Source: Mediterraneibacter butyricigenes (GTDB taxonomy: Bacteria; Bacillota; Clostridia; Lachnospirales; Lachnospiraceae). Taken from it: a stretch of 64,000 bases of DNA. Positions 2,000-39,990 of the stretch are shown here, piece by piece. Positions within the stretch are counted from its first letter, which is position 1. Each line of letters starts with the position of its first letter. The DNA lies in NCBI RefSeq assembly GCF_003574295.1, contig NZ_BHGK01000001.1:186001-250000 (forward strand), in the 5' to 3' direction. The translations under genes and the position numbers were made by a program. The notes under the pieces were generated by a model. That model saw nothing but the letters and a program-made list of their open reading frames with translations. It had not been told where the DNA came from and did no database searches.

Positions 2000-2128
2000 T
2001 TCCGCAAAAGTTTGCCACGGAAACCGCTTACGCTTGCCTTCGCCCCCATAGAGATACTCTTCGAGCGGCGCTCGCGCTCAGGAAGTACCGGGGCTTCGGA
2101 TGTTCCCTTATACAAATCTTTTGCGGAA
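2000..2128 (-). repeat. Dispersed repeat with terminal inverted repeats, copy A
   Basis: A 129-bp segment bounded by a perfect 11-bp inverted repeat (TTCCGCAAAAG at 2000-2010, CTTTTGCGGAA at 2118-2128). Read on the minus strand it matches copy B at 19307-19440 closely, including AAGGGAACATCCGAAGCC, CCCCGGTACTT and GGCAAGCGTAAGCGG. It sits in the rpsO-pnp gap. Short frames inside it translate to similar peptides in both copies, but it has no ribosome site and I do not regard it as coding. It could be a MITE, a REP-like element or a structured RNA. Confidence 0.8.
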
Positions 2129-19262: not shown

Positions 19263-19263
19263 T

Positions 19264-19291
19264 GCAACCTTTTGTGGCAGGGTAACAGTTT
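19264..19291 (+). repeat. Partial repeat-end fragment next to copy B
   Basis: GCAACCTTTTGTGGCAGGGT and following bases resemble the right end of copy B and its flank at 19426-19453 (GCAACCTTTTGCGGGAGGAT). This looks like the remaining end of another element unit in tandem with copy B. Confidence 0.5.
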
Positions 19292-19306
19292 TCATCAACA
19301 CATTTC

Positions 19307-19440
19307 TTCCGCAAAAGGGATGCATAAGGGAACATCCGAAGCCCCGGTACTTTCTGAGAGCGTGCGTGAGCATCGCTCGAAGGTTCTCTCTATGGGGCGA
19401 AGGCAAGCGTAAGCGGTTCCCGTTGCAACCTTTTGCGGGA
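19307..19440 (+). repeat. Dispersed repeat with terminal inverted repeats, copy B
   Basis: 134 bp bounded by TTCCGCAAAAG (19307-19317) and CTTTTGCGGGA (19430-19440), an inverted pair with one mismatch. It matches copy A at 2000-2128 when copy A is read on the minus strand, with most differences in the central GAGAGCGTGCGTGAGC segment. Located between the rpsT and ilvC terminators. Confidence 0.8.
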
Positions 19441-19462
19441 GGATAGTGGTTTGCGTAAACAA

Positions 19463-39618: not shown

Positions 39619-39990
39619 GAAACGCGAAGCAAGACGATAAGCCGGGTTATGTCGTTGGACGGTCATCTGTCTAGGCCTGATGTTGCCATCAGGCTCCAGC
39701 GACCTACCTAAAGCGTGACGGGCCGCCACATCGCTTTGATCCGGTCTTGCTTCGGATGGGGTTTACATATGCCCCCGCTGTTACCAGTGAGGCGGTAGTC
39801 TCTTACACTGCCTTTCCACCCTTACGAGCCGGAGTAATTCACTCCGGCTCGCGGTTTATTTCTGTTGCACTAGCCTTGGAGTCGCCTCCACCGGACGTTA
39901 TCCGGCATCCTGCCCTTTGAAGCCCGGACTTTCCTCGTCTGCTACCTTTCGGCACTTGCAGCCGCGACCGTCTGTCTTACTTTGCGTTTC
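39619..39990 (-). ncRNA. rnpB: RNase P RNA, class A
   Basis: Catalytic RNA that matures tRNA 5' ends. Recognised on the minus strand by the conserved 5' block GAGGAAAGTCCGGGCT, the P4-forming 3' segment, ATAACCCGGCTTAT near the 3' end and overall size (about 370 nt). The two ends pair (GAAACGC with GCGTTTC, then AGTAAGAC with GTCTTGCT), extending P1, and are followed by a T-run at about 39608-39618 that serves as terminator. 5' end placed from the promoter; uncertain by a few bases. Confidence 0.95.

Follow-up and report, generated by a model that had tools for sequence, protein, structure and literature searches.

The window, the whole stretch of 64,000 nucleotides analysed here (C1:186001-250000), holds two copies of a hairpin-forming element, which lie in mutually opposite orientation where an earlier note on this DNA had placed them (Table 1). 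The genes next to copy 1, which is on the transcribed strand, are rpsO and pnp; those next to copy 2 are rpsT and ilvC. The long identical blocks that the note had seen in both are borne out by a BLAST match of 84% identity over query bases 23-155 (E = 3.6e-37); judged from this alignment, the similarity is far above chance level. The pnp gene is flanked on both sides, by copy 1 in the rpsO-pnp junction and by another copy (C1:185310-185445) opposite. Elsewhere in the window, an ordinary RNase P RNA of bacterial class A is found at 39622-39983 (minus strand, 302 bits).

Both copies carry inverted repeats, of 14 nt and 93% complementarity in copy 1 and of 20 nt and 80% complementarity in copy 2. 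These repeats had been taken as terminal; they are present, but they form a variable arm beside the core rather than the outer terminus of the mobile unit. An alternative short hairpin, TCCCG..CGGGA, adjoins the arm. The third, partial end noticed at 19264-19291 proved to be part of a repeated end module, which also flanks copies elsewhere in the genome, outside the inverted arm. On folding of copy 1, the minus strand reaches -55.1 kcal/mol (z = -3.73) vs -44 kcal/mol (z = -2.12) for the other strand. The better-folding strand is called strand R below; it is the minus strand for copy 1 and the plus strand for copy 2.

Table 1. Features of the element in the window (positions counted from the first nucleotide of the window)
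Feature	Position	Strand	Basis
Copy 1, arm-core-arm	2000..2128	- (modelled fold = minus strand)	BLAST, folding
Conserved core, copy 1	2013..2109	-	model R2, 59.3 bits
Side hairpin P7, copy 1, GC-GUAA-GC	2026..2033	-	sequence reading, loop statistics
Left arm (inverted repeat), copy 1	2000..2013		inverted-repeat comparison
Right arm, copy 1	2115..2128		inverted-repeat comparison
Copy 2	19307..19440	+ (modelled fold = plus strand)	BLAST, folding
Conserved core, copy 2	19326..19427	+	model R2, 65.4 bits
Side hairpin P7, copy 2, GC-GUAA-GC	19407..19414	+	sequence reading, loop statistics
Left arm, copy 2	19299..19318		inverted-repeat comparison
Right arm, copy 2	19429..19448		inverted-repeat comparison
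Separate partial element = end module (GTGTTGATGAAAACC type) adjoining copy 2	19263..19305	-	C1:205263-205305, 88% to module consensus
End module attached to copy 2	19413..19461	-	C1:205413-205461, 92% to module consensus

With copy 1 as the BLAST query, 40 matches were obtained in the window's own genome (3.03 Mb, 7 contigs), 24 of which are near full length and were aligned. The expectation that two copies in 64 kb foretell many in the genome is thus borne out, and the family is not limited to the two. An extra core at C1:1722868, absent from the BLAST matches, is matched by the covariance model R2, which was built from 35 cores of about 100 bases from several genera. Identity to copy 1 ranges from 74 to 86%, truncation is frequent, and half copies and short copies are also present. 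Many copies carry outer modules, GAGTTATAGGACAAAATGTGTTGATGAAAACCATTATCCTC on one side of the core and GAGTTAAAGTTGTATTCCTATAACTC on the other. Seven loci have an identical internal deletion, which is easiest to explain by the multiplication of one deleted copy; repeated deletion between short repeats is a possible alternative.

Inspection of the contexts by eye revealed no preferred orientation to genes (tandem contexts number 8 and 9 among 26 loci), and the copy positions, when looked at, displayed no pattern of replication-strand bias. Six half copies (L031, L037, L041, L042, L046 and L059) seem by eye to end at the stop of a neighbouring frame, the repeat supplying the TAA. A terminator-like stretch (ACAGAGCAGACATAT..) follows L009, L030, L043 and L054 and is perhaps a further end module. 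Eight stretches between close pairs of copies were considered as sources of a transposase and rejected, since their translations read as ordinary-looking genes; among these, pnp alone was tested with a model.

The core is a three-way junction of about 100 bases on strand R, drawn by hand from these sequences. It consists of helix P2 (GGNAC/GUNCC), P2b (UCC/GGA), P3 (four pairs of free sequence) and P4 (GGUACU/AGUACC, with a U.U mismatch above, followed by a variable apical hairpin), together with the side hairpin P7 (GC-GNRA-GC). Covariation in the stem, which the earlier note had proposed to look for, is found in set A5, where 14 of the 24 named core pairs are changed on both sides. This set omits L114, L125, L140 and L124:2809-2954. 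The covariation score of 0.282, for which rows L115, L118, L123, L126 and L133 were retained in spite of being one column off in P2b, was reached by none of 500 shuffles, and sliding the partners by 1-3 columns gave at most 0.128. P3 is paired in all cells, and its four main pairs have 9, 5, 6 and 3 doubly changed rows. A GNRA loop closes P7 in 23 of the 24 own copies (A2) and in 35 of 36 sequences of a wider set (A4), both counted independently of any anchor; the count of 35 of 35 in A5 is biased, since an anchor pattern including the GNRA loop (at most one mismatch) had served to locate its rows. At 19 of the 24 core pairs, five being left out, G.U outnumbers A.C by 20 to 7 (9 to 5 in the own copies), and this excess leans to RNA on strand R. 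The conserved internal structure suggested by the earlier note is therefore upheld by both covariation and the GNRA loop. In one relative (G330), the copy L124:2809-2954 has an extra hairpin within the 3' strand of P2b.

BLAST yielded no matches among 40 relatives. An exact pattern found a sole match among named genomes, the goat-ileum MAG Eubacterium sp. RGIG2447, in which it occurs twice; the core is alike there and the arms are different. A first model, R1, built from 24 own copies and later replaced by R2, matched 15 of 299 genomes of the window's family, which we take to be the Lachnospiraceae. In that family, model R2 matches 145 of 396 genomes, spread over 121 of 280 genera. Five of 398 genomes sampled across the phylum are R2-positive, four from the same family and one, G654, from another class. 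About ten candidates were scored per genome in that search, and the copy numbers are therefore lower bounds. G654, the sole carrier outside the family, has at least nine matches and may reflect either horizontal transfer or a misbinned genome. Within one genus searched with R1, nine of 16 species are positive, with 1 to 42 matches each, and three species of 99% completeness have no matches. In G781, head-to-head pairs of elements about 120-400 bases apart occur in three places (L293, L294 and L295).

No Rfam family matched over the element (window at gathering scores, five loci at E up to 10 and 20 loci at E up to 5). Two query cores gave no BLAST matches in phages, plasmids and viral contigs, and the 0, 0, 2 and 5 stretches collected by four viral pattern scans included none (0/7) that passes model R2. 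An empty orthologous site was sought next to the gene beside L122, which is present in 15 of 16 species of one genus (G320 was matched in the element alone). No such site was recognisable among the 13 loci compared, where the intergenic DNA is too diverged and three loci end at contig ends and are perhaps misplaced. In paralogous units of G852 the homology ends short of the element. No paper on the family was found in one open-access library, and the hairpin family is apparently undescribed.

The clearest evidence of mobility comes from the relative G804. Its elements lie between CAGGACAAACGCATGAA and the complement of that sequence, and measure 36 to 520 bp between paired ends. The end sequence GGNNAAACGCATGAN, with one mismatch allowed, occurs 354 times in G804 vs 15 times for the reversed control, and 57 vs 8 times in G219. 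Target duplications flank 12 of 29 candidate end pairs, some of which are alternative pairings of one end, vs 2 of 392 mismatched pairs; seven are exact duplications of 8-10 bp and five have one mismatch. The proportions are 6/15 vs 2/210 mismatched pairs in one set, and 6/14 vs 0/182 in the other, which comprises close pairs chosen among the matches listed. In G219, an exact 10-bp duplication (TAAAAAGTTC) was seen by eye on both sides of L284. At L322 of G804, an uninterrupted frame of 369 aa lies behind the same end sequence as that of the elements and belongs to the ISAs1 family of transposases (NF033564, E 2.9e-98; PF13808/PF01609); the contig stops inside the opposite end of this locus. 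Because of the common ends, the 8-10-bp duplications and the ISAs1-family gene behind the same end, the G804 units are MITEs. The core motif is present in one of the 14 elements of the close-pair set. Since core-less elements also have duplications, the core is dispensable for movement. In G804, the cores of L340/L342 and of L328 harbour, at the same place, a second palindrome with CAATGTGGTCAACTTAAG ends, which has GGCACTTAGCG on both sides; the composite was therefore probably copied after the nested insertion.

The NF033564 profile was sought in 36 genomes, 22 taken as carriers of the core and 14 others, five of the 14 being judged core-free by R1 alone. Among the carriers it matched in G804, G153 and, as fragments, G219 only, and among the others in five (G329, G318, G004, G013 and G046). 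Across these genomes there is no association between the ISAs1 enzyme and the core. One of the G219 fragments (C164:32576-32791) adjoins element L281, and the enzyme may account for G804 and perhaps G219; in other carriers the mover may have been lost.

The earlier note had read the element as a MITE and had named target duplications and a matching transposase as its marks. The reading is supported, as a MITE with a conserved structure, by the copy number, the inverted ends and the internal deletion common to seven own loci, and by the duplications and transposase gene of G804. Both marks are found in that relative, but not in the window's own genome, where no duplications were recognised by eye around copies that are diverged and often truncated, and where NF033564 has no match. 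The copies in the window's genome are therefore probably old, and their own movement would follow from that of the family rather than from traces in this genome.

The two arms of a copy match each other better than they match the arms of sister copies. In G804 (eight copies, 62-nt arms), complementarity is 97.4% within copies and 81.1% between copies, with a core identity of 94.4%, and none of 5000 permutations reached the difference. The corresponding values are 0.804 vs 0.682 in G317 (25 copies of its 42 matches; 0/5000), 0.758 vs 0.674 in the own genome (23 of the 24 copies; 0/5000) and 0.883 vs 0.812 in G219 (nine copies; 1/5000). Copy-specific pairing is absent in G749 (0.770 vs 0.772; five of eight fetched copies). 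Three copies in G804 display how such pairing may arise. L296-L300 have an unpaired bulge in the stem adjoining the core; in L302 the right side complements the left block, and in L301 and L303 it is the left side that complements the right block, so that a 6-nt bulge is replaced at once and in both directions. Template switching, as described in PMC8794818, yields multi-base compensatory changes by copying one side of a stem from the other. By analogy with that account, block changes in both directions are as expected of template switching, and would not be expected of single compensatory mutations.

It follows from arm-to-arm copying that covariation in the arms must not be read as selection on RNA. 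The same process could add to the covariation inside the core. Because template switching can itself create covariation, the covariation of the core is weaker proof of selection than usual. The core would nevertheless seem to be under selection, because its asymmetric loops and GNRA loop are kept though arm copying would erase them, and because in G804, G317, G219 and G749 the arms change faster than the core does.

Taken together, these observations favour, with a probability of about two in three, the view that the window copies are old members of a non-autonomous, hairpin-shaped, MITE-like transposable family, moved by a transposase, with arms copied from each other and a core under selection. 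The full element would be one large imperfect palindrome composed of an end, a long arm, the three-way-junction core, an arm and an end. First, a transposase would recognise the ends of the unit and move it, leaving the 8-10-bp duplications seen in G804; the likely enzyme is the ISAs1-family transposase whose gene lies behind that same end, and which presumably acts on the element, and the same would have held for the window's genome. Second, one arm would be copied from the other, as the G804 pattern indicates, with the hairpin perhaps allowing template switching or fold-back synthesis, and the arms would in this way drift yet stay paired. Third, the core, being selected, would escape this homogenisation, and its asymmetric loops, junction and GNRA loop would thereby persist across many genera. 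Its role would most likely be that of a folded RNA in the transcripts of neighbouring genes, or else that of a folded DNA strand in replication or transposition; action at transcript ends as RNA and action as a folded DNA strand are both possible, and the RNA role is suggested by the structure. A more far-reaching version, which we hold as tentative and on balance doubtful, is that the core constitutes an independent nucleic-acid module under selection, riding hairpin transposons with different ends and mobilisers in more than 120 genera. Fold-back copying at the time of each insertion or later would remake the arms, each copy would have closely matching arms peculiar to itself, and the inverted repeats would be regenerated and not inherited.

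It is also conceivable, at a distinctly lower probability, that the core alone is mobile and inserts into the loops of existing palindromes, the arms being part of its target (such as intrinsic terminators in G317 and ISAs1 MITEs in G804). End sequences do vary between genomes, and in G654 (four copies) and G195 (two copies) arm comparisons between copies score no higher than shuffled sequence, although the cores keep 84% and 77% identity. Within copies, the mean arm pairing slightly exceeds the 99th shuffle percentile in G654, where two of the four copies taken alone score 20 and fall under that percentile, and clearly above it in G195. In G317, the stem has an A-run to its left and a T-run to its right in 15 of 25 copies, and at least one of the two runs in 23, against an AAAA background of 20% for a stretch of that kind; such flanks are like those of two-way terminators. 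However, arms, core and ends all lie within one pair of duplications in G804, and the core copy with the nested palindrome was itself copied (L328 and L340/L342). Moreover, old arms drifting by arm-to-arm copying would look identical, and G654 and G195 supply four and two copies only.

Rather less credit is given to the possibility that the arms owe their complementarity to selection on each base pair of an RNA stem and not to copying of arm from arm. It would account for the maintenance of stem pairing in several genomes and for an apex that is RNA-like, but not for the replacement of the bulge as a block, in both directions, in L301, L302 and L303. Nor do the arms have the G.U excess: G.U and A.C number 3 and 2 in G804, and 5 and 19 in the inner arms of G317, where the excess of A.C speaks against the arms acting as RNA on that strand.

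Improbable for other reasons is a host regulatory RNA or protein-binding site spread by duplication, without a mobile element. The GNRA loop, the lean of the core pairs to G.U on one strand and the place of copy 1 between rpsO and pnp on the transcribed strand would all suit such a site, but the patchy occurrence within one genus (0 to 42 matches), the lack of an orientation preference and the target duplications would not. Least of all can these intergenic hairpin repeats be REP/REPIN-type elements moved by a Y1 (RAYT) transposase: although the own genome has one RAYT-like gene (L210), no element lies beside it within the 3.3 kb inspected, no Y1 match was obtained in the carriers G159 and G228 (94-95% complete) or in G330 (67%), whereas Y1 is present in five genomes that lack R1 matches, and the 8-10-bp duplications of G804 are of a kind that Y1 enzymes, to our knowledge, do not make. 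Y1 transposases were accordingly rejected as movers, as no association with the element was seen.

Among known systems, the family resembles the bacterial MITEs of ISAs1-family insertion sequences in the inverted ends that match a transposase gene, the duplications, the lack of coding capacity and the deletion derivatives, as seen in G804. In contrast to bacterial MITEs, it has a structured, conserved core, found with other ends in many genera, and copy-specific arms. The ERIC elements of enterobacteria are imperfect palindromes of about 127 bp dispersed between genes; the resemblance lies in the intergenic palindromes, and the hosts are different. REP/REPIN sequences with RAYT are likewise non-autonomous, multi-copy intergenic hairpins, as described in PMC3116915 and PMC6006769, and the latter gives a GTAG-type tetranucleotide at the foot of the hairpin as a feature; compared with those descriptions, the present elements are longer, have duplications in G804 and display no association with Y1. 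The MRSC-65-2 motif of PMC11109978 is also structured, multi-copy, covarying and suspected to be selfish. Its description gives one long stem bearing a UYCCGG repeat and an occurrence in diverse phyla, whereas the core analysed here combines a three-way junction with a GNRA hairpin and is almost restricted to a single family. The same paper puts the number of mobile or repeat candidates at 250, and the present family may be among them. The maintenance of hairpins by template switching has, in PMC8794818, the same multi-base compensatory changes through one-sided copying; there it is deduced from the histories of RNA genes, whereas here it is read among sister copies of one genome. What is new here is the scale, the core common to elements with different ends, and the arm-to-arm copying.

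A structured element thus occurs in 145 of 396 sampled genomes of a single bacterial family and is unmatched in Rfam. With many sister copies per genome, it constitutes a natural replicate experiment on hairpin pairing, in which arm-to-arm copying can be read among the copies and separated from selection on single pairs. It also carries the warning that covariation in inverted repeats need not mean selection on RNA. The ends, the duplications and the transposase gene of G804 make transposition of these elements directly testable.
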